DNA of 64,000 bases. Origin: Loxodes magnus (taxonomy: Eukaryota; Ciliophora; Karyorelictea; Loxodida; Loxodidae). Location of the stretch: positions 80,245-144,244 of the forward strand of contig CAMPDV010001094.1 in NCBI GenBank assembly GCA_946699065.1. The letters are read 5' to 3'. The position numbers and the translations under genes are program-made. The notes below the pieces were generated by a model that saw nothing but the letters and a program-made list of their open reading frames with translations, was not told the origin of the DNA and searched no databases. Below are positions 181 through 49,784 of the stretch, piece by piece (position 1 is the first letter of the stretch; each line of letters opens with the position of its first letter).

Positions 181-574
181 TTAGAATCTATTGTACTCAA
201 TTCATATTATATATTTAATATCCTTAACTGAATTGATTGTAAAAAATATTTCTGAGATCATTTTTCTTTTTCTTATTAAGGTAATTAATCAATTAAATAA
301 GATCTTTATTCTTATTCAAAGGTATTTTATTGAGAGAGATCTGGTATTTCTTAGGGACCATTTTAAATTAAATATATATTAATGATAATAATATAAGATT
401 CTAAATAAAAAGTCTATAAGATTAAAAATAATAATATACTAAAAGTATATTTGAAATAAAGTATAAGTTATTTAATTAAGTATGATTCAAATATTTATTA
501 TATAAAACATGTAAATGAAAGTACTAATTTAATTTATAGATTTCCCTTTTCATTTTGGATTTAGAAATATATAA

Positions 575-1302
575 TATCAATAATATAAAATTTGAATTAA
601 GTATCTAAATTATATTTCTAAAATATTAAAAAGTTATGTTTATATTATATTTATTAAAAGCTAGAAAATAATAAAATTTATAATAGATAAACAAATTTAA
701 AATTGTAGTATTTATTTATTTTTAATATTTAAATAACTTTTGAAATATCTTAAATATGCATATATAAGTTTACATTTTAAATTAATCTATTAGTAAAATT
801 AATTTTATTAATAATTTATAATTTAAACATGTATAATTTTATTTATTTTAATAAATAGTCAATCAATATTTACTTAATACTTTAATTTAAAACATTTCTT
901 TTTATTTATTTCATTAGCTTTATTTAAGTTTTTTCAAATTATATATTCAATTAAAATAGTTAATATATCTTTAAAATTAATTTTACTTACAGGCATTTTT
1001 TATGTATACAATTTAACTAAAAATTACATCTATTAATAGTTTAAAATTAAACTATATCATTTTTATGTTATTTTTAGATATTTAAAGTTAATGTTATCTA
1101 TTTATGTCTTTTATACTCAATATATTATTTGAAGGCTTTAAATTAACTTGCAAAAAACTAGCACTACTCTAGTAAATTTTTAGGCAATGTTGTTAAGTTA
1201 TTTTACATATAGAAGATATCTTAACTCTATAAATAGATTAGTAATATTTGTAAATAAAGCATTAAATATTTATTAAAAAGTTTATAAATTAATACGATTA
1301 TT
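575..1302 (+). repeat. Left extension shared by copies 1 and 2 only
   Basis: This matches 20086-20754 closely, apart from a roughly 60-bp stretch (about 859-917) missing from copy 2. Copy 3 lacks the block because its homology starts later, inside the family A head. AT-rich with no gene recognised. Confidence 0.8.
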
Positions 1303-1606
1303 GAGCGAGTAGCACCTCAGGCGGGTGCAGCTCTTTGATAAAGATTTTTAAAGTTAATAAAATTCCTTGCTGAAGTCTTCCACAGTGCTAACATTCCCTT
1401 GTGAGTTTATTATAGGGCCGCTATCGGAATGCTTCTCTAAGACCTTAGTATCTGGTATCTTTCATCATTAATACTACTTGATGCCTCTTCGATCTTGTCT
1501 TCTCTTCTCTTGGCTCCTAACAAGATTTTTGATTGGTTCTTCACCTATGGATACTTCCTAGTACCAGAGTTCAAGTAAGTTTGAATTGGATCATTGGTGC
1601 GTATTG
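1300..1606 (+). ncRNA. Family A structured element, copy A1
   Basis: A 300-nt stretch of higher GC than its surroundings. It opens with a nested hairpin: GAGC (1303-1306) pairs GCTC (1330-1333), and inside it GCACC (1312-1316) pairs GGTGC (1324-1328). Further hairpins follow: CTTG..CAAG around TTGGCTCCTAACAAG, and TACT..AGTA around TACTTCCTAGTA. The 3' part has GAGTTCAAGT and a box related to TTGGAGGATTG. The same order of boxes recurs at 20.76, 31.23, 35.63 and 59.81 kb, and stems keep pairing where bases change. The product is unknown; it could be a pol III RNA or a SINE. No database family could be assigned from sequence alone. Confidence 0.6.
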
Positions 1607-3404
1607 ATTTATACATAATAGTTTGAAAATATAAAACTAATAAGTAGTAAGGATTATTATTTGGCTTAATTATAATATATAATTTGATTAATATTTTAGA
1701 ATTATATTTTTATAAAGCGAAAGATTTAATAAAGAAATATTAAAATTAATTATTTTTGTATCATTAAATTAAATGATTGTAAAAAATTAAAAATGTTACA
1801 TTTTAACATAAATTTATTAAATTTTATAAATAATTTACAAAATGGATTGAGTGGTAAATTTGATTTGAACTGAATAATATCTTAATTTTGGATTATTTAT
1901 TGTTATCCTTAACTTATTTAGTTTGATATTAGATTTTTAGGATTTTATTGATTAGCATAGTTTTAATTTAACATCTTTAATTTATTTTCTGTATCTTATT
2001 CTATTTAAATAACAGTTTAAATTTGATAAAAGTTTTTACAATGAAGATACATTTCCTTTAATTAGATTAAAATATACAATTAATTTATTTAAATTATTAA
2101 TCTTTCCTATTTTATTATTGTAGATCAACATTCATAGATTATTCTCATAGTTATAAAGAATATTTACCAAAAAGAGAATATTAAATAAAAAAATATGTAA
2201 ATAGTTTTAATATATAAAAACTAAATTTTGCTAATTAAATATCTCAAATTATTATTTAAATTAAATAATATTATCAAAATTAAATCACTATTTACATTAC
2301 AAAATAACTAGTTCAACTAACACTATTATACACTACATTATCAACATATCAATAACATATCAAATATCCAAATTACTAATTCCAAAAATACTATAAACAT
2401 TTAATATACTATCTATATATACTTAAACTTATTTTACATCTATTTACTTTATTTTTAAATATTCTAATATTAATTATCAAATTTAATATATTATATTATA
2501 AACATAATTAGTTAATATATTACAATTCTTAAATTATTTACATAATTCATTTACTTTTATATATTTTAATAATTAAATAAGTTATTTAAGGATTTTAATT
2601 TTGTCTTAATATTAGATTATTTATTTGTAATAATTTTTTAATTTATCTTTTTATTAAGTTATCTAAAGACTCTTTATAATTTCTCTTTTATAATTTCTAT
2701 TTAATATTAGTTATATATAAAATAGATAAAAAGAGAATATAAGGTAATAGATGATAATATTTAAAGTAAGTAATAAATTATAAATAGATTAGTTACATTA
2801 GTATTAGAGGTAATATTAATAAGCTAGTTTATCATAGTAATAGTAATAATCTAATCTAAACTGTTATATTTACACTTTTAGCTTTTACATTTATTAACTT
2901 TATAATAAAATGTAAGTCATCTACCTATGCTAATACTGCTCTTATCCTTTTAACCTAACTAACGCTATTCCTACTGTCTTACCTTGTTCTCATACTTTCT
3001 GTAGCTTATGCTTAAAGACTTAGTACTATTTATAGAATCAAATCAGCTGCTGCATTTGTTATAAGGTATTTCACTTTAGATTTGAAGATTTACCTATAAA
3101 TGATGAATGGGTAGAGATATTACAATAATAATAGGAGTAGATTAATATTAGAAAGTAATGCTAATAGAAATTAAATTAAATGAAGAAGTAAATAGATTAG
3201 AAGCAAAATAAAATTACTTAGATATAGCAAAGAGTTAGCTACTAATATTTGAATTTAATACCTTCATAACATATTACATTACTAAAATAATAGAAACTAA
3301 AGAATGACTAGAAATATAATGTCCATCTGTAAGCCTTTGTCTCTATCACCTAAAAATATTCCTCAAATACAATAAAATAAATATATTAGCAGATAAAACT
3401 TAAC
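1607..3404. other. AT-rich stretch upstream of kelch-1
   Basis: No gene is supported. The sequence is nearly unchanged in copies 2 and 3. A slightly less AT-rich patch at 2930-3060 has no recognisable product. The last 170 bases before the ATG are where divergence between copies begins. Confidence 0.5.
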
Positions 3405-4274
3405 ATGATTGATTAGAGAAATATATAGCAAGAATAAAAATTAATAATTTAAGCTGAGTAGAATATAAAGGAAAGTAAATATATTCATTTCTTTTAATGG
3501 GATACTTATATTCTTCGATTATTTAATATAGAAACAGAATAAATTTAAAAAGTTTAAATAAATACTTAGGTTCCTAGTTTTAGTAGAAGTATTGAATATA
3601 GAAATAAATTATATTTAGTTGGAGGATAAATAAATAAATAAGGAGTAAAAGATACTTGATAATTTGACTTTTAAGGAAATAGTAGAAAACTATCTAGTCT
3701 TAACTAAGGAAGATTTGGGTTTGGATTAGCAGCAGCTTAAGATTATATATATGTAGTAGGAGGAAATTTTGATTTAAGTAAAACTTTAAGAACAGTAGAA
3801 AAATTAAAGATAGGAAATTAAAATAAATGATAATATTGTTCTTAGTTTCCTTTTGGAATAGCATGTTAGACATTGGTAGCAGATAAGAATGAATAAAATA
3901 TTTATTCGTTTGGAGGATCAAACTAAAATGCATAAATTTTAAATGACATATGAAAATATAATATATAGAACGATATATGAAATAAATATCATTTAAATCT
4001 TCCTGAAGCTGTTTCATTTCCTTTAGTATTACTTGAACCTCTAATTATAGTTGGAGGAGTAAAAAATCCATATAAAAATTAATATTTAAGAAAGATATAT
4101 AAAAGAAACAATCAATAATGATAATAAATAGAATTTAAGCATAATTCTATTAATTTATCAGCATTTAAAACAAGAGATAGATTTGCTTATTCTTTTATTC
4201 CTGATAAACCTAACCTTTTATTGTTGAGAGTCGATATAGTGAACTTGAGTTACAAGACTATTAGAATAGTGTGA
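3405..4274 (+). CDS. Kelch-repeat protein, copy 1 (intact in reassigned code)
   Basis: Read with UAA/UAG as Gln and UGA as Trp, this is a 289-residue frame ending in tandem TGA TGA. The N-terminal ~75 residues are Gln-rich and helical-looking. Kelch blades then follow with Gly-Gly doublets in the contexts YLVGG, YVVGG, YSFGG and IIVGG, each followed by an aromatic/Trp region. In-frame UGA codons at 3657, 3828, 3951, 3978 and 4119 sit at Trp positions, two of them in DTW and NDIWKY kelch contexts. Kelch blades build beta-propellers that bind proteins; about four blades are visible, fewer than the usual five to seven. The ATG is aligned in all three paralogues, which decides the start. Length matches copy 3 except for one codon. 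The cellular role is unknown. Confidence 0.82.
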
Positions 4275-4277
4275 TGA

Positions 4278-6469
4278 ATGAAGTTAAATAAAATATAATA
4301 AATTTAAAGTATTTTTAATAATAAATATTATATTATAGTATTTTATAAGTTTGAATGATTTAGGTATAATAAGAAGTAATGATTATGTAGTAATATTTTT
4401 AGAATGTTATATATTGTAAGTTGATTTAATGTTAGTCTGATAGTTAGACAGTGATGGTGTTGATTGTAAGGGTTGATATAAATATATTTGATATAATTAA
4501 ATATTGTGTAATTAGTAGAGACATATTAATATTAAGTAATGATGCACATAATGATGTGCATAATGAATTTGAAAGTATGTTTTAATTTAGTATAAAATAA
4601 AAATATTTGAGTTTTAAAGTTGATGCTATCTACTTATGATTTAGTTATTATATTATAGTTTAAAAGAATTATTTAAATAATAAAAATTTATAAAAAAGTG
4701 ATCTAATAAACAGTTAGCTAAATTATTATCTTAAAAAGTTTATTATCTAAATAATACTAAAAATAAGCAAAAAGAATCTAATAATACATATAGATATAAA
4801 TATTTATAGCTATTATATTACTTTAATAATTAAAGGTAAAAGTAAGTTTTAGTGATAAAATAATTCTTTATTGGATTAACAAAGATTAAAGTTAGAAAAT
4901 ATTTTATCTAAAACATATTAAATGTTGCTTTTGTCTAAATAGCTATTTAAATTCATTTTACTTATATCTTTTTTACTTAAGAAAAAGTAAAGACGAGTAT
5001 TTTAAAAAGAGCATGAACAATGAAGTTATATAAATGCTCACAAAAAAGAAAATTTATAAGTGAAAATATTATGATTACTACTATATTGAGTGCTCTAAAG
5101 TTATATAATATATTATTAAGAAGCTTCTTTTTTAATAGATAGATAAACTTCTTGATAGTTTAATGAATTTCTTGGTGGATATTACGATAATTTAATTATA
5201 ATTTAAATATCATTTATATGAAGTGTTATTAGCAATAATATTTCCTAAGCAGTATATAAAATTGTTTATAATTTCCCTAAAATAAAAGTTATTACGTGCA
5301 CATAAAGATTCTATATTGATTACAATAAAGATTAAAATTAGCTCTGTTTTATAGTTAGAAAGAAATTAGTTGATAAGAAATTTGAATATGTTGATAAACA
5401 TAAATGGTAACATTAAGCTATCTATTTATACATTAATATAAAGTAATTTTGTTGATGCTAATTGTATTATCTGAATATGATTAGATTTTTTGATAATAAT
5501 AGGTTTATTTGAATATAAAAGGAATTAAAAAATAAACTAATTTAAATTAGTTAAAATATTTAATTTCTTAATTTATATCTAATTAAATAAATTAAACCAT
5601 TATATACTCTTAAGTTTAAAACTTATATAATTATAAATTTTGGTTACAGATAAGTTTTATTTAAATTATATAATATTATTTCTATTTATAGAGTATAAAT
5701 TGAAGTAAGTAAAAAGGAACAATATTATTGATATTTAAATATATTTTAAATTAGAATAAATGATTAAACTTTTAATTAAATAAATATAAATATCAGATAT
5801 TTACAACACTATATCAAATTAATTATTTTAAGTAAATATACTATTTTAACTTATATCTACTATTTTTTAATCAATCCAAATAATCATATAATAATAATCA
5901 AATTATCAAATTATAATATACTCAAATTATATCCAAATTACATATAATTCATCATTATTCAAATATATTATTACACTTAAATCAAACCATTTATTTTATA
6001 CATTTTTTCCATATCAAATAGTCATCAATTCTAAAAAACATACTAATTTCAAATATTATATCAACTCATTTTATTAATACCTCCAAATTATAATCATAGA
6101 TATAATTATAACCAAATTAATGCTTCATTATTTTAATATTAGAACCTACTTTTAAATATCATTCTTATACATATATAAATATAGTTATTATTTTTATTTA
6201 AATATGTATATTGCCATTTAATTTTAATAACAATACTAATTTATTTTTTAGTTTAAATATTTTTAATTTATATCATCTATTTTATTTATGCTTTTACTAA
6301 TAGTTTTTTAATTTAATTTTAGTTTATATTTCTTTAAATTAAATTACACTTACAGTCATTTTATATATCTTAATTAAAATTTATATTTTATAGCAATTTA
6401 AAATTAAATAGTATCATTTTTTTATTATTATTTTAGATATTTAAAGTTAATATTATCTAATTTTTTAAA
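4278..6469. other. AT-rich stretch after kelch-1
   Basis: No gene supported. It is almost base-for-base the same in copies 2 and 3 (from 23733 and 38581). It contains GATGCACATAATGATGTGCA at about 4540, an imperfect palindrome, and otherwise only A/T-rich sequence. Confidence 0.5.
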
Positions 6470-8146
6470 GGAAAAAAGCATAGTTTTTGAAGTGTTTTGA
6501 AGTGAGAGTACGAAATTTTAATATCAGAGTCATTAAATTGGTAAGTTTAGAGTGTTGAATTCGATGAAATTTCATTATCTTGTTAAAACTAATACTTTTA
6601 GTAAATTAGATTGATATCCTGGTGTGATTCGGTTGAAAAAACGATTTAAGGAAAAAATGTTTTAGTTTTTTAGATTGGCTTGCGGAAAATTCTAATGAGA
6701 ATTATTTTTAAGTGAAAGAAGAATCATATTCTTGCTGTTGTCTAAATTAAAATTTTCTTAGGAAGTACGTTAAGGCAGATTTAGTGTTTCATTAATAAAG
6801 TTTGCCATTTTATTTTATTAATTAGTAAAGAATTTTTAAATTAAAGAAAGCTTTAAGCCATAGGTAATTAAATGTAAATAGCTTGATAAAATTAAGCGAA
6901 AGTAATCATGACCAATTCTTTTCAATTTTCAGGATACCTCTATATTCTACTCTTATGTAATAAAGATAAAATCTGACCATTACAATTTTAAGTTATTTAT
7001 CTGGAAAAGCAATTTATAGATAATTTTATGATATCTTTGAACTTTCGTATTTATAGATTAGTTAATTTTTTTATAATCTAAATAAGGATAAATTAAATAA
7101 TAATATGAATTAGCTTTATAATTTTAATTATTTTTAAAGATATTAGCAAACAATTTCAATCAGATAGAAGCTTTATATTAAAATAAAACTTCTTTTTAAT
7201 TATTATATCATAATTTTCTATCAAATAACTATTTATAAATAAAAGTTAGTCTATGAAGAAATTAATAAAAGCTACTAGTAATAAAACTTAAATTACTAGA
7301 TCTAAGGAAACTAAATTTAGATATTCTTAAGATTAGATAAAATAAAAATTTTGTTTATTAAAATTTAGCTCCTTAAAGAGTATAATAATCTATTGAATGA
7401 TTTTTAGAAAGTTAAATTTTAAATAGATAGAAATATTAGGAATTAAAAATTAATAATAGTAATTATATAATAATAAATTAACCTCTTTTATATACTTCAT
7501 CGATTAGATAAAAATAATAAAAACCTAAAAGTTTAGAATAACAATTTCTATTTATAGAAAACATAATATTAAAAGACTCATTTAATAAATTATTTTTCAT
7601 TTATTTGTTTAATTTAGATTTAATATTAGGGAATAAATTCCTTCTTTTTTCTTTGATAGCAATAAGAATTAAATTATGCAACAATAACTATTAATAATTA
7701 TTAGAAATAAAGTTAATTTAAATTTTTAATTTCATAATCTTTTAAATCAAAAAATAGGAAAAAATGCCAATCTATAGAAGAACACAATTTAAATATTTAG
7801 AAAGATAGATAGGAAATATTTTTTAGACATAAAATAAAAAAAGAATAAAAACCATAAATGAATCATCAGATAATCCATTTAGTAAAATTTAAACTGATAA
7901 AGATATTAAAATTTCTAATTTGAAAAAAAAGTTTTACATTTTCAATAGCTTGGCGTAGAATCTTATTTAAAATATTCTAAGATATTTATGAATTAAATAG
8001 CTAATAGCCTTTGCTAAAGTGTGAAATAAATATAAGAAAAATTAATCTCTTTATATAAAAATCATATAAATTTATTTCTTAATTGCAATTCATAGTAATT
8101 TTACTATGTTTCTTTATCCTTGAAAACTAGTAATTTCAAATTTTAA
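6470..8146 (+). other. Coding-like stretch, frame undecided
   Basis: Somewhat less AT-rich from 6470 to 6960. Two overlapping frames read as plausible protein. One runs through the ATG at 7764 (a basic, hydrophobic reading). The other starts at ATG 7253 and reaches TGA 7859 with the same 609-nt length in copy 3. Because no codon is a strict stop, openness proves nothing, and copies are too alike here to show selection. In copy 2 the homology ends inside this stretch (about 27025) and the reading runs on into unrelated sequence. I make no functional call. Confidence 0.25.
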
Positions 8147-8487
8147 TTTTTTTGCATTAATTAATTAATTTTAAACTAAAAGAGTTTTTGGACTGCAACT
8201 TCTTGAATTTAACGACCCCAACACTCCCTTCATGGGATAACGGGGATATCCTGTTGCTTTCGAAAAGCAGCTGCCAGGGAGCTCCATCGCTATGGGCAGC
8301 CAGGCTTCAAGCCCCTACCAGGAGTGGATAATCAAGAGGAAGATGTTCCCTTGCAAAAGTTGACTTTGACCAGGGACTTTCTCAGCGACAGGAAAGGAAC
8401 TTGTTCCTAGCCATAAAACCAGAAAGTATGATTCAGAAGGTCAATCTCAGCTCCCACCATCTTTTTAATTATCATTTTTTTGCATTA
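8147..8487 (+). mobile_element. SINE-like element S1 with 13-bp target duplication
   Basis: A GC-rich 315-bp element (8160-8474) is flanked by perfect direct repeats TTTTTTTGCATTA at 8147-8159 and 8475-8487, as left by target-primed insertion. On the plus strand it contains GCTTCAAGCCC (8304-8314), 10 of 11 matches to the pol III B-box consensus, and ends with a T5 run after CCACCATC. I see no convincing A box. A hairpin TGCTT-TCGAA-AAGCA (8255-8269) has a counterpart in S2 with three compensating base-pair changes. There is no RT-type ORF, so it would be non-autonomous. It is shared with copy 3, so insertion predates that duplication. Confidence 0.75.
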
Positions 8488-10893
8488 TATTCTGTTTTAT
8501 ATATATGATTAAGGCATAACCTTTAGATATTAATGTTATTGTGAATCTAAATTTCTTTTGACATTATAAATATTTTTATTCTTTATTATTTCAATAAATA
8601 AAGTGTTTTAAAGTGAAATTCTTTCATTTTTTACTCTAAGCAATTGAATAAAATTTGTTTATTTATCTATAATTTATCTTTAAGTTTTCTCAAGCATTAA
8701 ATATCCCCAAATTTTTATAAAATTTCCAATATTTAGACAAATCAAAATATAGATCTCAGATTATTCCTTAATTTTCATTGATTAATTTTAAAATTTTTAT
8801 TCTATCATATGAATAAAATGAATTTTAAGAAAAAAAATTTAATTTTTTCTTTTTAAAGTTTTGAAACTTCAGACCATAATTATAAAATTTAATCTTAAAT
8901 GATCAAAATACGTTTTCTAATTAAAGTCCTAAATTTAATATAGTTATCTATTTATTTTTTATAACAATTTAGAGTTTCTCTTTTATTTTCTTTATGCTAT
9001 GTCTTTTTTTACCTTATAAAAAACTAAAAATCAAATAATAAACTTGATCAAGCAATTTAATAAAAATAATTATTATTTTCTAAAGCTAAGAAAAATTATT
9101 TTAGCATTTGATTAACGAAATTAGTTAGTAGTTACTTTTTCTCTTGATAAAGTTATATAATAGAGAAAAAGATTTTAAATATGCTTGTATTTACCATGAA
9201 TATAACTTAGATAAAATTAAATTATATTTCCATTACAGTAAGTTTTAGCCTTTCTACTTTAGAAATCTAAAAAACTAAGATTAATGCTAGCTAAATTTAT
9301 ATAATATATCTATAGTTAATATTTGTTTTAGAACAATAATTTGGACTCTTAAAATTAAAAAAGATTATGAGCCTTTCTAGTTCTCTAGCGAGCAAAGATT
9401 AAATATTCTTAGTTATCTTAGAAAATAAACTAACTCGTCCAGAAAAATAAAAGATGATATTTAAATTTTCTGATAGAAAGGATACTAACTAGTTTTTAGT
9501 TTCTTCAAAGAAGAAAATAATAAATTCTATTTCATTGATGAGTACAAAACTTATTCTATTATCTTAAATCTCATTTTAAAATTATCTAATTTTTCTAGTA
9601 GTAAGAATCACAAAGAAATTGAATGCTAAAACAAAAATAAAAATAAAGCATAAAATATTTAAAATAGTAACTATTAGATAAAATAACTTATTAGCAAAAT
9701 AAAGCTGATTGAATACAAGTTTCTTAAAAATAAATAAATCTCTTAGGAAATCTCTAAATCCAATTTTATAAATTTATGAATTTTGAAATATATAAAAAAT
9801 TTTATTTTATTAAATCTACTAATGCAATTATAGATTCTTTATTTATTTAAATTTTTTAACCTAATAAATAAATTTTACGGATAGCTTATAAAAAAATTGA
9901 ATATAAGAATATTAGATGTCATAAAAGAATAGAATTATTAAATATCTTTAGTTTTTCTTAAATTTTATTAAATCTTTGGATTATGATTTCTAAAAATTAG
10001 CTCAAAATCTATAAAAATAAATTTAGCTGTGCAAGAAAATAAAAATTTGCTCTATATTTACTTACTTAAATTGCTAATTAATACTCAAACAAGGTTAAAT
10101 AGATTTAATATAAGAAACATTTATAAAAAAGCCTTAGGATTTATAATTTGAAAGTAATGCTATAAATTTTCACGATTTATCCTAACTCTTAATTTCCTAA
10201 AATACAATTTTTATCTAAATATTTAGAAAAAATTTATAAAGATAGAATCAGCTCTAAAATAATAGTGCTAAATTTATAACTAATAAAAACTAAATTCTTC
10301 CAATTATAATAAACATATCATTAACTTTATAAATAATTATTTCCTAAAAAAGGATAGAATCTTCTACTAAGTAAAGCATATGGAAAATTAAAAAAAAATT
10401 ATCTAGTAAAAACAAAGAATAGCTAAATAAATATTTATTATGCAATTAATAATAAATTAATTAATAAACTAAAACTTAATTATCATAGCTTTCTTTATAG
10501 AAAGAAGCAAATTAGTAAAAAAGATAATGAATAGTTAGTTTAATTATATATTCTAAAGAAAATATAAAACTTAATAACTCTCCGTAATTAGCGAATTTAT
10601 CTCAGAGTATTTTAAAAATAAGCATTGTTCTCTTGATAAATTACTTAGGATCCTTTATCTTAAACAAAAATTAAATTTTAGTTTATTATATCTAAACTTC
10701 TTCAAATATTTTTGATTTCAAATTAATTAAATAATTTAAAGTAGTGACATATCTACCATTAGCATATTGTAGGCTATTTAGAGGAATAAATTAATAATTC
10801 TAAGATAAATGAGGTAATTAAATTTTAAATTAATTCTCAAAATTAAAGTTAGAAATATCTATTTAAGGGAATTATTCTAAAATTATTATAAAT
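8488..10893. other. AT-rich stretch, no supported gene
   Basis: A long reading with plausible composition exists in one frame. Comparison with copy 3 (42779-45171) shows many isolated one-base indels between about 8760 and 9250, and another near 10350. That argues against coding constraint, at least in the first kilobase. Confidence 0.5.
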
Positions 10894-11533
10894 ATGTCAG
10901 GTCGAGGAGAACTAGCTGCTATAAATAAATTTCAATTCATTTTACTTGGACTGCTATCTGACTTATTGAGAGAATATCAAGACTTCTGCTTTAAATGGGT
11001 TGACTTAGGGAGAAGAGTTTTATAGTCAATTTTTGTGCTTCAATAAAATCTTTCTAAGTTCATATAGCATTAATGAATTACCTGGATTTCAAACAGCTAG
11101 AAATAAAATTTTAGGTAAAGTTTTTTCTTCAAAACGTAAAGCGCTAAGAAAACACAAAAACTGGATGCTCGCACTATAATTAAATAAGCGGAACTTGATA
11201 GAAAATTTACGAAAGCTAAATATCATATTATAAAAGTTAAAATCTTGATTTTATTTTTAAGATAAATTATATTCAAAGTGAGAAGGAGAGATAAAGCGTA
11301 AAAATTAAATTCATATCCCAAAAATGCTACAATATTTCAGTGATTTCATTACTGCAAAAAGAATATACGAATTATAGATTTAAAATCTATAAAATTTATA
11401 ATAAATTTTTAACTTAGGAAAATAAATAAAACTAACAATTTTTAATAAATTGACCATTTGAGAAATAAGAGAGTGATATGCATCATGTATAGATTCATTA
11501 AGTAGATTAAATTTTTAATTTTCATTATAATGA
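10894..11533 (+). pseudogene. Hypothetical gene X, copy 1 (one-base frameshift)
   Basis: Starts ATG TCA GGT CGA GGA, an N-terminus MSGRGELAAINKF. The first ~50 residues are shared with the 212-residue frame of copy 3 (45172-45810). Here a CAATAAAATC run has one extra A relative to copy 3, giving 640 nt instead of 639 and breaking the frame. Both end at the same TGA. No domain is recognised; the first four residues resemble histone H4 but the rest does not. The extra base lies in an A-run and could be an assembly error. Confidence 0.35.
11353..11411 (+). repeat. Motif shared by genes X and Y, copy a
   Basis: GCAAAAAGAATATACGAATT followed by ATAGATTTAA and ATCTAT recurs at 13281-13320, and in copy 3 near 45630 and 47559. 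If translated in the X and Y frames, both give A-K-R-I-Y-E-L-Q-I-Q near the C-terminus. The ATAGATTTAAATCTAT core is palindromic. Confidence 0.6.
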
Positions 11534-12657
11534 TAGATTTACCTTTTAAATTTTAATGTATAACTCAAATTAATTTATTTTTATTTTATACCTTTAATTA
11601 TTTATTTTATTAATTAAGCTAGAAATATTTACACTTTAATATAAAACTAAAACTTAATAAGGGAAAATATAATTAAAGTTAACTTGGCTATTATGAAAGT
11701 GAATTAGAGGGCAAGTTAAAAATGAAGACAATTATAGTTATTTATTAGTCCCGATTTATCTTTTCATTATTTATAAAATAAAGCTATATATTTATCCTTT
11801 TTTTATGAGGATAACACATATTATTATCATTTATATGAACAAACACATCCACATATAGTTGTTCTATTAATTGTGATGTATACTTGATATTTTCTAATCT
11901 TAGTTATTTTAAATTATTATATTTAGAGAAAAAGAATCTAAAATAGATTGTTATTATTAAATTTCATTAAATATAAAACAGTAACTAAATTAAATTAAGC
12001 TTTAACTACCCCCTATTATTATGATTATTTATTATTATATTCTGTATTAAAGTAGGTATCTTTATATATTTATTTAGATTTAAGCTATTACTTACTAACT
12101 AAAATAAAAAGCATTTACATTTTATCAATGTTTGATTGATGTCTTTAGTTATATTTTTATGAAAATAATTTCCTTATAAAAATACTAAATCAAAGTCACT
12201 ATAAAATATTGGTGATTTATGATTATTATTCTTCTTTTTTTATTATGAATCTATTTGTTATCTTTCACTCTAACTAGAAAAGATAAGCTAGATAGAATAT
12301 ATACGAATGCACTTAGATTAGATACGGATATATGCATAATTCAAACTATAAAAAGAATAATCATATTTTGCTTTTAGCTTCTATCACAAAAAATAAATTT
12401 AAATTTAACCTTTCAGCAGTATAAAAATTGTATAACTTATCTATTTAGAGAATGATCTAAGTCTATAATAATAAAACAATTAATTTAATAGGTAAATGAA
12501 AAAATATTTTAGACTGAAAAACCTACTTTTTACATTAGATAAAAATAGAATTTTATTTTATAAGATTTAAATAAATAATTTAGGTATTTTTTCAAAGTAA
12601 ACGTTAAAGTTCTTATTTATATGCATATGCTTTAGTTTATTTTATAATTTAATAGAA
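11534..12657. other. AT-rich stretch between X and Y
   Basis: No gene supported. It differs from copy 3 by scattered substitutions and small indels (for example AAATTTAAATTTAAC versus AAATTTAATTTAAC, and a 2-base difference at ATTTATATGC near 12620). Confidence 0.45.
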
Positions 12658-13374
12658 ATGAGTCAAGAGAAAATCATAATCTAATTTAATTGGTTATATT
12701 CAGGCTTTAAAGAATATGGACCAGATTACTTCCATACGTATGTTTTTTTGATACAGGATAGCTAGCTAAGTAATACGGCTTAAAGAAGACAATTAAACTA
12801 CAATTTTAAATAACTAGGGCTGAAACAAATAAATTGTGGACAAAAGGCAAGATTAATTAAAAATAAAATTAATTTTAGTATTAAAACAATTCTTTGGTAT
12901 GAAAGAAAGCACATTCAATTCTAAATTTTCTATTACCTCTACTATCAAGACTTATTTAGACTGAAAAAAAGATAACGATGTAATAATCCCACAATTAAGG
13001 ACAATTAAAGACGCTTATGCTGAATTAGTTTCATAAAACTTTTAAATGATCAGCGAATAAAAAACTAAAGAATTCTCTTTAAATATGCAAATAAATTCTC
13101 GCCAAAAATAATGAAAGCTAGCAAGATCCGAGAGAAAAATTTGATTTAATTTCCGGTTTAGAAAATATAATGAGTCTAAATAATAAAGTATCTTTTAAAG
13201 GAATCAAATTAACTAATAAAGACTTAAATAGCTAACTTATTATTTAGACAAAACATAGATAATCGTAGTGATAAAATTATGGCAAAAAGAATATACGAAT
13301 TATAGATTTAATCTATGAATATTTTATAGAATTAACTTTGGAAAGAAAAGATGTAAATAAAATATAAGTAATGA
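12658..13374 (+). CDS. Hypothetical gene Y, copy 1
   Basis: A 238-residue reading from ATG to TGA (13372-13374) in the reassigned code. The product is basic and Gln/Lys/Ile-rich, with a tract EYGPDYFHTY near residues 20-30 and no signal peptide. Copy 3 (46933-47649) has exactly the same 717-nt length with no internal indel, while its flanks carry several. One difference is CAA versus TAA in the same codon, which is silent if UAA is Gln. Other changes are replacements, including CGA to TGA and TGG to TAG, so constraint looks weak. The C-terminus shares AKRIYELQIQ with gene X, suggesting the two are related or share an inserted motif. Function unknown. Confidence 0.45.
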
Positions 13375-14055
13375 AAGTATCTAAACAAGAATAGAGACTT
13401 TTATTTCTTTGTGCTAGCATTAATTAGATTTTTTGATGAAGAAAGTTTTATATATTTTTAATTCAAGAAATTTCTTTCCCTTTCAAAAAGTATAAAAGCA
13501 CTTAATAAATTTTGTTTTGAAAATAAAGAAGTTTTTTAGCCAGAGTATTTGCAGAGGTTAGCATCAATCAAAAATAAATTCTTCTTGTAAAGATCGAATA
13601 AATGAAATTATTTGCTTTATTTTTTGTATTTTTATATTATATTTATTTTTAAGAATTTAATAATTTTGATAAAGTTTTTAAGTATTTTATCATTTGAATT
13701 ATTTTCAAGCTATGTGCTTATAATTTTTTAGCTTCTTTATTTTAGTTGTTAATTCTTTCAAATATTTTATCATAATTTCTCTAATTAAAAAAATATTAAA
13801 AGAAATGCATTTCGATTTTAAAAGTTCTTCTTATTCTTATAACTTCTTTATTCTTTTACTATTTTCATTTAATTGAAGATATATTTAATTAATTTTTTAT
13901 AATAAATTAAATTAAAATTCTTATTTTATCTTATTATTTAGAGGTTTCGCTTTTTTATAAATTATTTTGTAAGAATTGATTCATTTTAATTTGCCTTTGT
14001 AAATCTAAAATTGTTTATATATATATCATTCAAAATATTTTAATATCTTAAAAAG
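13375..14055. other. AT-rich stretch after gene Y
   Basis: No gene recognised. It is collinear with 47650-48334 with small indels. Confidence 0.45.
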
Positions 14056-14127
14056 GGGCTGCTACGGGAATTGAACCCGTGACCTCTCGCACCCAAAGCG
14101 AGAATCATACCACTAGACCAAGCAGCC
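14056..14127 (-). tRNA. tRNA-Pro (UGG)
   Basis: A 72-nt cloverleaf on the minus strand. Acceptor GGCTGCT pairs AGCAGCC, the D arm carries TCTAGTGGTATGA, the anticodon loop reads TTTGGGT with anticodon TGG, and the T arm contains GGGTTCAATTCCC. It is identical to the copies at 29065 and 48335. The bases just upstream (14128-14150, minus sense AAACAAGAGTAATATAGAG) are also shared with both. Confidence 0.97.
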
Positions 14128-15580
14128 TCTATATTACTCTTGTTTACTATCCTTTAAATATCTTAAAACAACAATAAAATTTATTTAGCAACTATTTTTT
14201 ATTTTAAGAATAGTCATATTTAAAATACTGTAACTTTATTTTTAATATAGGAAACAATTAAAATATTAAAATATTTTTTAAAATAGAGATTTGTTTAATA
14301 ATTTTATCGAAATAATTATCTGAATTGTAAATATTTTACCTTTTTTGTAGTAACTTATTTTTTAGATTAGATTTAAAAATATTTATTCAAAGATACTTTC
14401 CAACTTGTTGGATTAATAATTAAAGTTAACTTTTATTTATTTAAACTTAGAAGTATTTTTAAACTTTGTTATTCTTTATATTACTTATTAATTTCATATA
14501 GGCTACTAGCTATATTTTGATTTATTTTTTAGAAGTTTGATATCTTTTAAATTAAATAATTATATACTTTTAAATATGCTTAAGAAGTTAATTTTTCCAC
14601 TACCTAATAAAATCTTTAAGAAATATCCCTAAATTTAATTTAGTTAAAAAATATTTTATATAAATTAAGGAAGTCAGAGTTAACTTTTATTTAATGAAAA
14701 TGTTATATCTAGTTTGGACACGATTGATAAATTAATTTTCAAAACTTAGATTTTTATTCATTTTTACTACAATTTTAAGTTAATTATAAATCCTATTTTT
14801 AAATTTTAAATAATCTATACATAATATTTGATTTTTTAATTAAAAAATCTAAACTTACTATAATTTTTAGTTTTATATATTCCTTTAATTGAGACTAAAA
14901 CTTCTAATTAAAATTAAAATTTATTAAATAGAAATATTTTATATTTGGATTAAATTCTCTATTATAATAGATTAACTATTAATTTCTCATTTCAGATATT
15001 TATAAAATTTAACATTAAACAATAGTTGTGTTGATGTATGCAGCTTTCTATTATTATTTTATATAAATTTAGTTATTTTTGATTTATATTTATAAATTAT
15101 TAATATTTAAATTACTTATATCCAAAGTTCTCGATAGATATTACTAATTTATTTATAGACAGTCTAAAAAACTAAATTATGTATAATGTAGATATTTATT
15201 ATTATATCTCTTTGACATACTTCTATTGCTGGTAAAATATATTATTTATTTAATTAATTAGTTAGATATTCTTACTTATATATTCGAGATGGAGATATTT
15301 AAATCATTATAAGATTGATAGATGCCTATTAATCATGATGAAATATTATGTTCTTTAAAATGCTTTAAATCAGCTTTAATTTAATTTATGGATTGTTATA
15401 ATCATACATTTAGAATAAAGTTTCTATCAACTAATTTTATTGCTTATTATATTATTAAGCATTTTCAAATTCAATATAAGTTATATTACTTTAAATTCCT
15501 TTATTTAGATTCAAGTGATTTATTTAACGAAAAGTCATTGCTTGTCTTAAATTTTTTAAATTAATGATAAAGTTAAAAAG
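14128..15580. other. AT-rich stretch between tRNA genes; homology break
   Basis: About 14155-14395 has no counterpart in copy 3. From CAACTTGTTGGATTAATAAT at 14402 homology to copy 3 resumes (49783). No gene recognised. Confidence 0.5.
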
Positions 15581-15651
15581 TGCACAATCCGGGAATCGAA
15601 CCCGGGTCTCACGAATGGGAATCTTGAATTCTACCACTGAAATAATTGTGC
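15581..15651 (-). tRNA. tRNA-Gly (CCC)
   Basis: A 71-nt cloverleaf on the minus strand. GCACAAT pairs ATTGTGC, the D arm is TTTCAGTGGTAGAAT, the anticodon loop TTCCCAT gives CCC, and the T arm CCGGGTTCGATTCCCGG is canonical. The anticodon stem CAAGA/TCGTG has one A-G mismatch, so activity is not certain. The homologue in copy 3 (50947-51010) is damaged. Confidence 0.85.
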
Positions 15652-16149
15652 TGTTAATGAAATTATTTGCATTAAATTAAATAATCTACTATCATTTATT
15701 AATTAGATTTAGTAGCATTTATTAATTTATAAATATACCTTTTTGGTAGAACTAATCTCTTCCTACTTTTGTTGACTAAATTGGTCAAAATATTTTGACA
15801 TAAATAATGGAATGGAAGAGGTAATTTTTAAGCTCTTTAAGCTTTTATGTCTCTACTTCAGTTGAAATTTATCGCTTGACTTTTTACTCGAGTAAGATGA
15901 TTTATTTTGACTAAACAAAATCCAAGTAGTATTGAGTATAACTTTGGAAATATCTTGTAAACTAGCCGGAATGGAAGCTTGGAATTATTTAAAAAATATA
16001 AATTAAAACCTGATTAGAAGATTTTAAAGGTAAAAAATGGAATATTAATATTTAGAAATAGAAGATCAATGCCTAAGCTTATTAAAGCAAAAAATTAAGT
16101 GAAAGTAGTTTAATTTTTTATTAATAAAATATTAAAATGGAGATTCTCA
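15652..16149. other. AT-rich stretch
   Basis: Collinear with 51011-51495. No gene recognised. Confidence 0.4.
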
Positions 16150-16430
16150 AGCTTTAGCAAGTGAAACCTCCACAGGAACTTAAGCCATGAATCAAGGGAC
16201 GAAGAAAAGAATAGTCTCATCAGAGATTTGGGAATTAAATACAATAATCAATTATGTCTTTCTCTGATTTGGCTGAATCTTGGAATCTGGAACGGAATAA
16301 CCTTCAGCTGTGGTTATTATTTGTCTAGGAATCTGAATTTTGGTGATATGTGAGCTCTGCCTTGGTAGTCCTTAGAGATGCAACCTATTATAGCTCCATT
16401 TTTCAAGATGTATCCTATTTCTCGAAATTA
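16150..16430 (-). ncRNA. Family B structured element, copy B3
   Basis: A less AT-rich patch. On the minus strand the core (16218-16273) reads CCAAATCAGAGAAAGACAT, then GATTAT, TTTAATTCCC and AATCTCTGATGAGAC. The same order of words is found at 60489, 60647 and (minus) 51574-51631. The ends CAGAGA and TCTCTG pair here, where B1/B2 have CAGAGG and CCTCTG, a compensating change. A further hairpin AATAACC..GGTTATT lies upstream of the core. TGATGA resembles a snoRNA C box, but no D box or guide could be placed. Candidate non-coding RNA of unknown role. Confidence 0.45.
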
Positions 16431-18849
16431 AACTAATAAAGGTGAAGCCAAGTTAATTTAATTAATTTACACAAAGAAAAAGCAATTACAAACCTTATAA
16501 AAGTGAATCTCTATATTTAATTATTTTTATTTTTAAACTTATTTATGAATAAAATCGCCCCTAAGAATTAAAAGAACTCTCTCTCAATTAATACATAAAG
16601 AAGAAAATAATCCAATTTAGATGAATAATCACCTTATAAAGATAAAATATAATACTCTAAAGAATTTTTTTGCATAATAAATGAATTAGGGAATATTAAA
16701 CCTACAATAGAATCAAAAAAACAAAGATGAAAATTAAAAAAATTAGAATATAAACTAGAAAATATAGGCAAATAATTAAACCTTTAGTTCCCATCTATAG
16801 AGGAAGCAAATAAAGCATACAATCATAAATGGGATATAAGTTATTTAAAAAATAAGTGAATAATAGAAGAGTATACCTTATGTATTGAGATAAATGATCA
16901 ATAAGAAGGTATAAGAAGAAAAATGGTTTTTATATATTTCAAAAGCAGCATTATTATAAAAGATACTGATGAAGATTGTAAATTTATATAGAAAATTAAT
17001 AAAAGACCTATTTTAAATATGATCAACTTAATCGGGCTTAATATATAGGAAAAAATTATAATAGTAAATTTAGCAATTTTAAGCGTCATTTTAATGTAGC
17101 ATGCTTAGCTATAATGCACGAAGTATAAATAAGGATGGCAAATTAATGAAATCCTAAACTAATCTTTAAAAGAGACGTTCTCGATGTATGATTGTATTGA
17201 CTAACTATTGAACTATAAATTTATTTTATTTTTATAACTATTTTTTTTTAAATTTTGAAATAGATAATAGATTAAATAAAGTAGATTTTAATTAAATATT
17301 CTTCTTAAATAATAAATTAAAAGTTACAACTAATATAAAAATATTTTAAGTAAAAAAAGAATTATCAAATACAAAAATCTTAATTATTATACAATCTTTT
17401 AAATATACATCTCAATATATCTTAAAATCAAAAAAATATAAGCTTATATTATAAATAAAATTACACCTAAAAAATATTAGACCTCTTCAACAAAACCTAT
17501 AACCCTTAGCAGGATGTGGTCAAAAATTTTTCCTTCTTTAAATGGAAAATTGAAAATTAAAATGGTTATTAGTGATCTATATTAATAAAACTTAAGCTTT
17601 AATAAACTCAATAAAAATTTTAAAATCTGAAAAATCAATTTTAAGATACCAATCAGCTCTGAATTCATTATTATAACAAATTAAAATATGATTTTATGGA
17701 CAGAATAGATCTTAAGAGAAATTTAAATCACTAGAAATTATAACCCAGAGCAATCCCCCCAAAATACTAAATGATCCAAAGGAAATGGAAAAATAGCATA
17801 TAGAAAAATAAATTCCCTTCTGAAGAGTTACGAAATGTCATATTTCGCGCTTCGGAGACATAAAGTACGAAATTGCTACCGATTTAAACAAAAAGATAAA
17901 AGAATAATAGAAAATTAATGGGTTCATTCTTCGGGATAAGCTACTATTAAGGAGATTTTTTTAATAGAAAAAATAATTCAAGAAATAATGAATCACCCTC
18001 TATATAATAAGCAATTAATAAATTAAATAGAAAATGGTTGGAATCTGACCAATTGGAAAAAATCTAGAAAAATAACTTAAGTCAAGACTCTTTACTGTGA
18101 AGATGCAAGCAAGTTTAAAGCGACTATTTTCAAACAAAAACTATTACTTTAAGAGCAAATAAAGGCGATGCTATAATAAACTATGTCATGTTATTTAATT
18201 TTTTATTCTTCTTTGAATTTAAAGAAAATTAGAATATTTTAAATAAGACCATGCTAGTAAATAATTATAAAAAATCAAGATAAATATTTTTATTTATATT
18301 ATATAATTTTTTGACTATTTCATCAAAATTTATGTAATATAATGATAATTTTATTATTTATAGTGATTCTACCTTTAAAATGGTTTATGATTTTATTATA
18401 GTTTAATTTTTTTGATAAATCTTAAATTTCTGGTTGTTCATCGAAATATTTTAATGAATTAAGCTTTCTGTCAACTCTTCTAATTAGTTGAAATTAGTTT
18501 CTAATTAATTGAAATTAGTTTCTAATTACTCGATTATCACATCTCCTGGATATTTATTGTCAATTTTTTATTCTTAGATATTATAAATCAGGTTTGTAAT
18601 TTTTTCTTTGAGTTCTTATTTGTATATTAAAAATTTATTATTTTTTCTTTCACTTTTTTGAGTTCTTTAAGTATAAGATAATTTAGTCTAGCTGAGATGA
18701 ATTCTTTTTAAAAGATACTTGTTGCAAGAAATGTTTAATTTTTATATTTAATAATTTGATAATTATAAGAGATATTCATACACCTGCTTTAGCTCTAAAG
18801 AAATGCATGAAAAAAGATAGAAGAGTTAAATAACAATATCTGATTTAAG
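16431..18849. other. AT-rich right arm of copy 1
   Basis: Collinear with 51791-54748 with many indels, including a roughly 95-bp segment present only in copy 3 (about 52143-52235). At 17820-18180 one frame gives a plausible basic protein, but the frame shifts in copy 3 near 53410, so I do not call a gene. A 21-nt unit (AATTAGTTGAAATTAGTTTCT) occurs twice at about 18481-18523 and once in copy 3. The 510 bases at 54146-54655 of copy 3 are missing here at about 18770. Confidence 0.5.
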
Positions 18850-19197
18850 ATTAATTAGAGTTTTAAAAATAATTGAAAAGATGGTGGGAGCTGAGAATGA
18901 CCTTCGTGACTAAAATTTCTGATTTATGGTTAGATACAAGTTCCTTTCCTGTCGCTGAGAAAGTCCCTGGTCAGAGTCATTTTCTGAAGAGAACGCTGTC
19001 TTTGAGATTATCCGCTCTTGGTAGGGGCTTGAAGCCTGGCTGCTCATAGCGATGGAGCTCCCTAGCAGCTGTGCCTGGAGCACAACAGGATATCCCCGTT
19101 TTTCCATAAAAAGAGAGCATCGGGTCGTCAATCGAAAAGAAGTTTCCGGTCCAAAAACTCTTTTAGTTGAAATTAATTAATTAATTAGAGTTTTAAA
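18850..19197 (-). mobile_element. SINE-like element S2 with 18-bp target duplication
   Basis: The 312-bp element 18868-19179 lies between direct repeats ATTAATTAGAGTTTTAAA at 18850-18867 and 19180-19197. It is the reverse complement of S1/S3 and keeps their length and B-box-like GCTTCAAGCC. Copy 3 of the host repeat holds the empty site (54748-54765, one near-identical target copy and no insert), so insertion came after copies 1 and 3 separated or was lost cleanly. The hairpin at 19070-19084 is TGTGC-CTGGA-GCACA, against TGCTT-TCGAA-AAGCA in S1. A 73-codon standard-code ORF on the minus strand at 18910-19131 is a by-product of the higher GC. Confidence 0.8.
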
Positions 19198-19260
19198 GAA
19201 ATTCTAAATCATTAAATCATTAAATCATTAAAATAACTGTTCGCCAAATCTATAAAAAAA

Positions 19261-20100
19261 ATGGATTAATCTCTTCGACTCTCAAAAAATTAACTTAGAA
19301 ACCTGAAGAGAAAAGCGGCAAAAGAAATTTAGAAAAAATAATAACAATAGGAGGAGTCAAGCTCTTTTTCAGAAGGTAAAGTTATGGTAGGATAAATAGA
19401 GATAAGTTAACCTAAAAACGAAACTAATCAAAAACTTTAAATTTAATTAGACCAAATGTAAAAAGTAATCTCAAATTATGAAGAAACAACTTACAACTTA
19501 GGCGAAAAAATACGGGAACTAATGAGTAACATAGAAGATTAGAACAACGAATTACTAATACTTAGAAGATAACTTATTTGTAGCAAATTAATAACGGAAG
19601 AATAACTCTGAACTTAATCATAATAAAATTTTAAATACGACACAAAAATGGAAATAGAAAAAATACCAATAGAATTAAAAACAGAATTGAATACAGAAAA
19701 AGAAATGATTGCTACAAGTTTCATTAAAAGATTAGAAAATATAGAAAATAAATTATCATAAAAAAGAACGAAATAAAGACAATAATACAAACTTTGTTGA
19801 TGTTGCAAATCAAATCAACATATTTTAAAAAACTGTTGATAATGAAAGAAAATAAACGAATAAGAGCAGAAAAGAACATGGAGACAACTCAATAAACTAT
19901 GAATAACTCCAACAGGGATCTACAAATAAAAGCTTTTTGCAAGACCACTTGAACGGTTACAGTGGTAACCTTCCACTTAATAAAAAGGTCGTGGATCACA
20001 CCCACGTTAAAAAAATTGTCCGTAGGAACTGGTTGCAATTCCAGAGAATGCAAAACTCTACTAACTTTAAGTATATTATTATTATTATTATAAAATTTGA
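19261..20100 (+). CDS. Gag/ORF1-like protein with CCHC zinc knuckle
   Basis: From ATG 19261 the reassigned code gives 279 residues to TGA at 20098. The first ~180 residues are Lys/Glu/Gln-rich and coiled-coil-like, starting MDQSLRLSKNQLRNLKRKAA. A perfect CX2CX4HX4C knuckle, CWCCKSNQHILKNC, lies at 19795-19836, with UGA read as Trp inside it. Such knuckles bind nucleic acid in retroelement Gag/ORF1 proteins. The related ORF at 29817 has CYYCKSKWHLYKNC and a similar N-terminus. The last codons run into the left edge of repeat copy 2 (about 20086), so the element is probably truncated there and no RT follows. Three strong hairpins in 19942-20035 may instead belong to a 3' non-coding part. Confidence 0.62.
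19938..20040 (+). other. Hairpin-rich segment at 3' end of gag-like ORF
   Basis: GGTTAC-AGTG-GTAACC, CGTGG..CCACG and GGAA..TTCC (in GGAACTGGTTGCAATTCC) follow each other within 100 nt. This is unusual for the AT-rich surroundings. It could be an element 3' end or a structured RNA. It lies just before the (TAT)n tract at the edge of repeat copy 2. Confidence 0.35.
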
Positions 20101-20754
20101 ATTAAGTATCTAAATTATTTTTCTAAAATATTAAAAAATTATGTTTATATTATATTTATTAAAAGCTAGAAAATAATAAAATTTATAATAAATAAACAAA
20201 TTTAAAATTGTAGTATTTATTTATTTTTAATATTTAAATAACTTTTGAAATATCTTAAATATACATATATAAGTTTACATTTTAAATTAATCTATTAGTA
20301 AAATTAATTTTATTAATAATTTATAATTTAAACATGTATAATTTTATTTATTTTAATAAATAGATTTCATTAGCTTTATTTAAGCTTTTCAAATTATATA
20401 TTCAATTAAAATAGTTGATATATCTTTCAAATTAATTCTACTTACAGGCATTTTTTATGTATATAATTTAACTAAAAATTACATCTATTAATAATTAAAA
20501 ATTAAACTATATCATTTTTATGTTATTTTTAGATATTTAAAGTTAATGTTACCTATTTATGTCTTTTATACTCAATATATTATTTGAAGGTTTTAAATTA
20601 GCTTGCAAAAAACTAGCACTACTCTAGTAAATTTTTAGGTAATGTTGTTAAGTTATTTTGCATATAGAAGATATCTTAACTTTATAAAAGATTAATAATA
20701 TTTATAAATAAAGCATTAAATATTTATTAAAAAGTTTATAAATTAATACGATTA

Positions 20755-21062
20755 TTGAGCGCGTAGCACCTCAGGCGGGTGCAGCTCTTTGATAAAGATT
20801 TCTAAAGTTAATAAAATTCCTTGCTGAAGTCTTCCACAGTGCTAGTATTCCCTTGTGAGTTTATTATAGGGCCGCTATCGGAATGCTTCTCTAAGACCTT
20901 AGTATCTGGTATCTTTCATCATTAATACTACTTGATGCCTCTTCGATCTTGTCTTCTCTTCTCTTGGCTCCTGACAAGATTTTTGATTGGTTCTTCGTCT
21001 ATGGATACTTGCTGGTACCAGAGTTCAAGTTAGTTTGAGTTGGAGGATTGGTGCGTATTGAT
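20755..21062 (+). ncRNA. Family A structured element, copy A2
   Basis: Same element as A1. The head hairpin is GAGCGCGTAGCACC...GGGTGCAGCTC, and the 3' box here is the fuller AGTTTGAGTTGGAGGATTGG. The small hairpin near 21010 is TAC..GTA with altered loop bases. Confidence 0.6.
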
Positions 21063-22857
21063 TTATACATAATAGTTTGAAAATATAAAACTAATAAGTA
21101 GTAAGGATTATTATTTGGCTTAATTATAATATATAATTTGATTAATATTTTAGAATTATATTTTGATAAAGCGAAAGATTTAATAAAGAAATATTAAAAT
21201 TAATTATTTTTGTATCATTAAATTAAATGATTGTAAAAAATTAAAAATGTTACATTTTAACATAAATTTATTAAATTTTATAAATAATTTACAAAATGGA
21301 TTGAGTGGTAAATTTGATTTGAACTGAATAATATCTTAATTTTGGATTATTTATTGTTATCCTTAACTTATTTAGTTTGATATTAGATTTTTAGGATTTT
21401 ATTGATTAGCATAGTTTTAATTTAACATCTTTAATTTATTTTCTGTATCTTATTCTATTTAAATAACAGTTTAAATTTGATAAAAGTTTTTACAATGAAG
21501 ATACATTTCCTTTAATTAGATTAAAATATACAATTAATTTATTTAAATTATTAATCTTTCCTATTTTATTATTGTAGATCAACATTCATAGATTATTCTC
21601 ATAGTTATAAAGAATATTTACCAAAAAGAGAATATTAAATAAAAAAATATGTAAATAGTTTTAATATATAAAAACTAAATTTTGCTAATTAAATATCTCA
21701 AATTATTATTTAAATTAAATAATATTATCAAAATTAAATCACTATTTACATTACAAAATAACTAGTTCAACTAACACTATTATACACTAGATTATCAACA
21801 TATCAATAACATATCAAATATCCAAATTACTAATTCCAAAAATACTATAAACATTTAATATACTATCTATATATACTTAAACTTATTTTACATCTATTTA
21901 CTTTATTTTTAAATATTCTAATATTAATTATCAAATTTAATATATTATATTATAAACATAATTAGTTAATATATTACAATTCTTAAATTATTGATATAAT
22001 TCATTTACTTTTATATATTTTAATAATTAAATAAGTTATTTAAGGATTTTAATTTTGTCTTAATATTAGATTATTTATTTGTAATAATTTTTTAATTTAT
22101 CTTTTTATTAAGTTATCTAAAGACTCTTTATAATTTCTCTTTTATAATTTCTATTTAATATTAGTTATATATAAAATAGATAAAAAGAGAATATAAGGTA
22201 ATAGATGATAATATTTAAAGTAAGTAATAAATTATAAATAGATTAGTTACATTAGTATTAGAGGTAATATTAATAAGCTAGTTTATCATAGTAATAGTAA
22301 TAATCTAATCTAAACTGTTATATTTACACTTTTAGCTTTTACATTTATTAACTTTATAATAAAATGTAAGTCATCTACCTATGCTAATACTGCTCTTATC
22401 CTTTTAACCTAACTAACGCTATTCCTACTGTCTTACCTTGTTCTCATACTTTCTGTAGCTTATGCTTAAAGACTTAGTACTATTTATAGAATCAAATCAG
22501 CTGCTGCATTTGTTATAAGGTATTTCACTTTAGATTTGAAGATTTACCTATAAATGATGAATGGGTAGAGATATTACAATAATAATAGGAGTAGATTAAT
22601 ATTAGAAAGTAATGCTAATAGAAATTAAATTAAATGAAGAAGTAAATAGATTAGAAGCAAAATAAAATTACTTAGATATAGCAAAGATTAGCTACTAATT
22701 TTAAATTTAATACCTTCATAACATATTAAATTACTTATCGTAATAGGAACTAAAGAATAATTAGCAATATAATGTCCATCTATAATCCTTAATTTCTGTC
22801 ATTAAATAATACTCCTCAAATAAAATCAAATATATAAATTACCAACTAAAATCTAAA
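21063..22857. other. AT-rich stretch, copy 2
   Basis: Counterpart of 1607-3404; nothing further seen. Confidence 0.45.
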
Positions 22858-23729: not shown

Positions 23730-23732
23730 TGA

Positions 23733-38577: not shown

Positions 38578-38580
38578 TGA

Positions 38581-48406: not shown

Positions 48407-48439
48407 TCTATATTACTCTTGTTTACTCTCCATTAAATA

Positions 48440-49780: not shown

Positions 49781-49784
49781 CAAC

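Follow-up and report, generated by a model that had tools for sequence, protein, structure and literature searches.

How do three neighbouring copies of one gene come to differ throughout a single block when the DNA on either side of that block is almost unchanged? The question arises in a window of 64,000 bases from Loxodes magnus (the whole stretch of DNA analysed, in whose coordinates all positions are given; G+C, 21%). The window contains three repeat units, A (565-18770), B (20069-27029), and C (35630-54140). Unit A pairs with both B and C, and each unit carries one copy of a gene encoding a RING finger and kelch repeats. The original prediction described a divergence hotspot centred on the gene, with sharp boundaries at about 3230 and 4275, and attributed it to diversifying selection or to cassette replacement in an otherwise homogenised repeat.

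We compare the copies by sliding windows along a three-way alignment and by three-state segmentation of the pairwise alignments, counting substitutions plus indel events as differences. Divergence is not uniform across the repeat. A block of ~1,050 bases (3224/3234 to 4270/4311 in copy A) differs by ~12% in every pair of copies, while most blocks beside it differ by 0.1-0.3%, in agreement with the predicted hotspot. By segmentation, this island occupies 3224-4311 of the plus strand in copy A (edges 3234-4270 against B and 3224-4311 against C), 22678-23745 in copy B, and 37530-38618 in copy C, both also on the plus strand. The left edges agree across pairs within ~10 bases (3224 and 3234) and the right edges within ~40 (4270-4311), so the boundaries are as sharp as predicted. 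The A-B right edge lies at 4270, and the stop codon is at 4272-4274. Pairwise divergence of the island is near-equal (11.7-12.5%).

The counts on either side are far lower. Between A and B, differences number 4/1641 in the left near-identical block (1593-3233) and 4/3304 to the right of the island (4271-7573); inside the island they are 61/338 (3234-3569), 0/115 (3570-3684), and 61/586 (3685-4270). Between A and C, the values are 1/753 (1711-2463), 20/748 (2464-3223), 129/1088 (3224-4311), and 3/1783 (4312-6101). Between B and C, in B coordinates, they are 0/752 (21166-21917), 16/140 (21918-22056), 6/608 (22057-22677), 133/1068 in the island (22678-23745), and 2/1805 (23746-25557). The near-identical block to the right, 4271-6101 in A, is common to all three copies.

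The flanks had been described as almost unchanged, which holds for most blocks and not for all. At 21918-22056 (about 2464-2600 in A and 36784-36922 in C), copy C is the odd copy in a noncoding patch that differs by 11% between B and C. Units A and B have small high patches at 565-583 (6/20) and 1543-1592 (8/50), and differ by 3% at 584-1542. Units A and C differ by 4% at 1309-1710 and 6102-6996, by 2.5% at 8343-14100, and by 9.3% (403/4319) at 14386-18770. The far block of unit A, 16256-18770, is 11.3% from unit C (278/2461), compared with 11.9% for the A-C island. Along this one duplication, divergence is thus patchy, at 0.1-0.5%, 2.5-5%, or 10-13% depending on the block. Since small noncoding patches of the repeat stayed divergent too, the gene is not alone in escaping homogenisation; the escape around it is the largest and is common to all three pairs.

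The gene extends well upstream of the island. In copy A it occupies 2910-4271 of the plus strand, with 454 codons from the ATG followed by TGATGA at 4272-4277. Copy C (37216-38574, plus strand) has 453 codons, is open throughout, and also ends in TGATGA. Copy B (22364-23726, plus strand) has a RING frame from 22364, a kelch frame at 23019-23726 that differs from it, and TGATGA at 23727. From N- to C-terminus, the domain order is RING finger, coiled coil, linker, and kelch. The predicted RING-type zinc finger of copy A (2928-3050, plus strand) matches Pfam zf-RING_UBOX at residues 76-116 of translated ORF P0003 (E 7.7e-5; 23.0 bits, just under the cut-off of 25.2), and the Cys/His spacing is readable in the copy A translation. 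We read the Gln-rich stretch after the RING finger as a coiled coil. The kelch part (3516-4271, plus strand) matches Kelch_4 (2.9e-17, 62.8 bits) and Kelch_1 (2.6e-16, 59.3 bits), both over the cut-off, which identifies it as kelch repeats, and a match to PF24981 spans residues 272-485 of P0003. Among solved structures, KLHL20 chains are the closest by sequence (E 6.4e-13), with other kelch structures also matched. AlphaFold2 models are poor, with a mean pLDDT of 33.5 for the whole protein and 45.1 for the kelch part. We take the protein to be a probable E3 ubiquitin ligase.

Across the codons for RING and coiled coil (2910-3202), A and C show 2 differences, and A and B show none. The gene is therefore split, with its RING half in the near-identical DNA and its linker and kelch part in the island. 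About 170 bases that the original prediction placed before the gene are read here as coding, and the part that it described is the kelch end. Its figure for protein change, about 30 of 187 residues between the first two copies, is close to the 33 of 236 kelch residues that differ between A and B.

The gene can be read through only if TAA and TAG are Gln and TGA is Trp; a table 11 translation lists no closed ORF with 120 or more codons. In copy A, TGA stands at the kelch Trp positions 250, 307, 348, 357, and 404. TGA also encodes the Trp of an NWRP motif, which we take to be a reverse transcriptase motif, in a reverse transcriptase gene at 55.6-58.1 kb. The reading of TGA as Trp is therefore supported by two unrelated genes, while that of TAA and TAG as Gln comes from the fit of the frame. 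The second gene (55601-58101, minus strand; RVT_1, E 6.9e-26) is read through with TGA as Trp and is, by our reading, of the non-LTR type. Excerpts of earlier reports describe nuclear codes in which all three stop codons serve as sense codons, in the ciliates Condylostoma and Parduczia (PMC4967479), in Loxodes (PMC11441545), and in Amoebophrya, a dinoflagellate relative (PMC12005148). The present gene shares with these codes TAA and TAG as Gln, TGA as Trp, and TGATGA at the apparent gene end. Its G+C content is 24%, compared with 33.5% given for Loxodes magnus coding sequence in an excerpt of PMC11441545. An exact search with 37 bases of the RING part gave 0 matches in viral contigs and 0 in prokaryote genome contigs.

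Is the island a region of accelerated change? In the kelch part, dS (NG86) is 0.16 for AB, 0.14 for AC, and 0.13 for BC, and in the linker it is 0.25 for A-C, compared with 0-0.02 in the RING part. The prediction would have failed on a dN/dS far below 1 with silent divergence equal to that of the flanks; silent divergence in the kelch part is instead well above that of the RING part. Kelch dN/dS by NG86 is 0.47 (AB), 0.62 (AC), and 0.74 (BC). Measured against the noncoding spectrum (reference, 14.4-18.8 kb versus 49.8-54.1 kb of the same A-C duplication), it is 0.49 (AB), 0.66 (AC), and 0.76 (BC), with the kelch part of copy B about as constrained as those of A and C. For A-C, 46.8 nonsynonymous and 12.2 silent changes are expected in the kelch part at the noncoding rate, and 46.5 and 18.5 are observed. 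The A-C linker gives 1.54 by the noncoding spectrum (p 0.14) and 0.70 by NG86. The ratio is nowhere clearly above 1. Silent sites are raised too, and the far block of the duplication is equally diverged; therefore, the island is not an acceleration. The flanks are the odd part, and their near identity looks like the work of gene conversion. The raised silent divergence rules out positive selection that acts solely on new mutations. Of the two forms that the originally proposed diversifying selection could take, one that keeps the copies different while conversion homogenises other parts fits better than one that acts on new mutations.

Targeted hypermutation of the linker and kelch part in otherwise young repeats would also give star-like divergence confined to one segment. 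The spectrum is ordinary, however, and we reject this explanation as extremely improbable. Over 3200-4280, A and C differ by 126 substitutions and one indel of 3 bases, while the noncoding A-C comparison has 350 substitutions and 53 indels; transitions and transversions number 56 and 70 in the A-C island and 181 and 169 in the noncoding comparison, so that substitution types resemble those of ordinary noncoding divergence. In addition, copies A and C retain the reading frame, and the far noncoding block is equally diverged.

The near identity of the flanks is not explained by coding constraint, because codon scoring of the near-identical flanks gives no coding signal and the six-frame translations of 1-2908 and 4280-9002 match no Pfam family at its cut-off. 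The six-frame scans also covered 9000-13902, 14800-19702, 29000-33902, and 58900-63802. Among the 36 translations scanned, none matches a Pfam family at the cut-off, including those of 14800-19702, where the far block lies, and two matches fall below it (PF06393, E 0.033; PF24361, E 0.092). The patchy A-C divergence fits conversion tracts; one recent duplication would probably not leave it. A largely homogenised repeat, as originally suggested, is consistent with this pattern.

The flanks might also be made to look alike by the assembly, if the assembler or polisher had given one consensus to flanks with a true difference of 1-3% and had kept the divergent linker-kelch segments as separate paths. 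Stretches of 1.6-3.3 kb with just 2-4 differences would agree with such an effect. However, the same units retain 2-13% differences elsewhere in the assembly, and a 12% island is beyond what a consensus step can make; such a step would do no more than sharpen the contrast. We regard this effect as very unlikely to be the explanation.

Could random conversion leave such an island? We simulate random conversion among three copies without selection or a mismatch barrier, at four mean tract lengths with 400 runs each. An island like the observed one (0.8-1.3 kb, clean flanks, shared edges) appears in 0 of 400 runs at each tract length under five criteria, two of which permit an identical stretch inside the island, as in the data. 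Under a sixth, very loose criterion, it appears in 1, 1, 1, and 0 runs per 400 (3/1600). A leftover of random conversion is thus rejected, within this simple model. The model contains no heterology barrier, so it does not separate selection from a barrier.

Shared edges could arise from selection or from a mismatch barrier, and we examine the amino-acid changes to distinguish the two. Loops are assigned through a phmmer alignment to KLHL20 and the general kelch topology; four GG-bearing blades are placed, and perhaps a fifth. The test covers residues 226-430 (205 residues), with 64 in presumed ligand-face loops (2-3 and 4-1) and 141 elsewhere; kelch residues 219-225 and 431-453, with two (433 and 447) of the 11 three-way sites, lie outside it. 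Strand limits in the kelch model roughly match the hand-drawn loops and were kept out of the tests. Changed residues number 43, with 21 on the face and 22 elsewhere (Fisher 0.005). Sites that differ three ways fall in the face loops in 8 of 9 cases (Fisher 4e-4), and radical sites in 13 of 19 (Fisher 5e-4). Conservative changes show no such bias (8 on the face and 16 elsewhere, 0.49), nor do silent sites (4 of 15 in face loops, p 0.75). Summed over pairs that are not independent of one another, dN/dS is 1.08 for the face and 0.58 for the framework.

The hand-drawn mask is matched or exceeded by few of its 205 circular shifts: 3 for changed, 4 for radical, and 4 for three-way sites. This mask was drawn after the alignment was seen, so a mask placed by a fixed rule is the fairer test; there, the shifts that do as well number 23, 7, and 8 of 205, respectively. 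For the 2-3 loops alone, 6, 3, and 15 of 205 shifts do as well. The 4-1 loops alone are weak (41, 26, and 13 of 205). The pattern of replacements moderately supports selection keeping the copies different.

A heterology barrier could act without any selection, if the linker and kelch part diverged for whatever reason, their mismatches then blocked strand exchange, and the rest was homogenised. Such a barrier is as good as selection at explaining the sharp edges common to the pairs, and it agrees with the dN/dS near or below 1, the broken frame of copy B, and the noncoding patches that stayed divergent. However, it gives no reason for the largest island to fall on the gene's recognition half, or for three-way and radical replacements to lean to the ligand-face loops. 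A barrier as the sole cause is, in our judgement, improbable, more so than the import of cassettes discussed below.

We consider it somewhat more probable than not that the three RING-kelch paralogs undergo gene conversion and that selection maintains the island in their recognition half. Here we infer conversion as the homogeniser, selection as the protector of the island, ligase activity, and three binding specificities. Three RING-coiled coil-kelch paralogs would sit in segmental duplications that had once diverged by ~11%. Recurrent non-allelic conversion would then have made most of the surrounding DNA, together with the 5′ RING and coiled-coil part, nearly identical. The linker and kelch part would be spared, because tracts overwriting it would lose one of the three specificities and be selected against, and the mismatches of the island would themselves hinder strand exchange and aid its protection. 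The outcome would be a shared effector half with three recognition halves. Several observations weigh against this explanation: dN/dS is not clearly above 1 anywhere; copy B is frame-broken and so may be a pseudogene needing no protection; noncoding DNA also escaped homogenisation, as in copy C at about 2464-2600 of A; and the loop bias is weaker under the fixed mask, with the 4-1 loops weak alone.

Copy B has four indel events relative to A between 3200 and 3510. These indels, at 22687-22960 of copy B, put the RING and kelch parts in different frames. Copy B may be a pseudogene, may have an unseen intron, or may be misassembled. According to an excerpt of PMC3924837, nonfunctional copies can persist as conversion donors. 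The 115-base stretch at 3570-3684 (plus strand), identical between A and B, may be such a transfer with B as the donor. This identity is longer than in any of 5,000 shuffles. The stretch is possibly an intragenic conversion tract, or else it reflects constraint, as A and C also have just 4 differences over it (4/115). Site classes in the island are clustered as well, forming 89 runs against a mean of 117, with 0 of 5,000 shuffles as low.

The clustered site classes and the 115-base identity allow that pieces have moved, as would be expected if a larger RING-kelch family existed at other places in the genome and each linker-kelch segment had been imported from a different member of it, by ectopic conversion, into units recently multiplied or homogenised. 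The sharp edges and the near-equal divergence of the three islands (11.7-12.5%) are also in line with this cassette replacement, the other half of the original proposal. However, it does not predict the equal divergence of the far block in the same duplication, and a six-frame BLASTP search of the 64 kb finds no kelch copy other than A, B, and C (next best match, E 0.074). We consider cassette replacement unlikely.

The selection-maintained island that we favour has precedents in kind. Excerpts of PMC3924837 describe duplicated genes that undergo gene conversion and show a peak of divergence, namely the human red and green opsins and, in a model by Innan, RHCE/RHD. As there, the present paralogs lie near each other, with very low divergence in the noncoding flanks and a local peak where difference would be useful. 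In contrast to those pairs, three copies are involved here, the ~1-kb island runs over the linker and kelch as far as the stop codon, and the case for conversion comes from comparing paralogs. The signature is thus known in kind from the opsins, going by the excerpts of PMC3924837, and the three-copy RING-kelch case is new to us. A light literature search with RING finger, kelch, and ciliate returned no such family in titles or the beginnings of abstracts.

The division of the protein also has parallels. The nematode MATH-BTB and F-box families and TRIM5 combine a conserved recruiting part with a fast-evolving substrate-binding part. The present gene likewise has a constant ligase-type half and a variable recognition half; it differs in that a single chain carries both RING and kelch, no dN/dS clearly exceeds 1, and the ligase role is predicted. 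It shares kelch repeats with KLHL20 and Keap1. KLHL proteins carry a BTB domain where the present protein has a RING finger. In the phmmer alignment, residues 269-270 align with the pair that follows the Arg in a KLHL20 blade, positions that we take to match the Ser/Gly contacts of Keap1. The Keap1 contacts are those given in excerpts of PMC6891428 and PMC12266349.

If the proposed explanation is correct, the half of a probable ubiquitin ligase that is pressed to stay different can be told from sequence alone, in a little-studied lineage. A three-copy island with edges mapped within ~40 bases would also allow selection to be weighed against a mismatch barrier. More speculatively, and with little confidence, the locus might belong to a clustered recognition system, in which copies share the RING ligase half, their kelch specificities are kept apart and partly shuffled by conversion with the frame-broken copy B as a donor, and more copies exist elsewhere in the genome. 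By analogy, its logic would be like that of disease-resistance, self-incompatibility, or MHC clusters, in a eukaryote in which TAA, TAG, and TGA all encode amino acids. The likeness to recognition or mating-type genes drawn in the original prediction is likewise conjecture.

The repeat units carry further elements. Direct repeats of ~300 bases, 70-72% alike, flank the gene in unit A (800-1103 and 6176-6462) and in unit B (20225-20558 and 25587-25918), and are possible sites of unequal exchange. A dispersed element lies at 1251-1441, 20684-20895, 35650-35916, and 59738-60103, with the other copies 71-76% alike to that at ~59.8 kb; its G+C content is above that of the surroundings, and the A-C homology starts there. 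A G+C-rich element of ~320 bases, 82% alike, is present at 8156-8472, 18869-19185, and 42447-42763, with the copy at 18869 in the opposite orientation to the others. Four tRNA-Pro genes (three TGG and one CGG) fall within 35 kb, at 14055-14127, 27888-27959, 29065-29136, and 48334-48406, and the window also contains a tRNA-Gly(CCC) at 15580 and a tRNA-Ser(TGA) at 48763.
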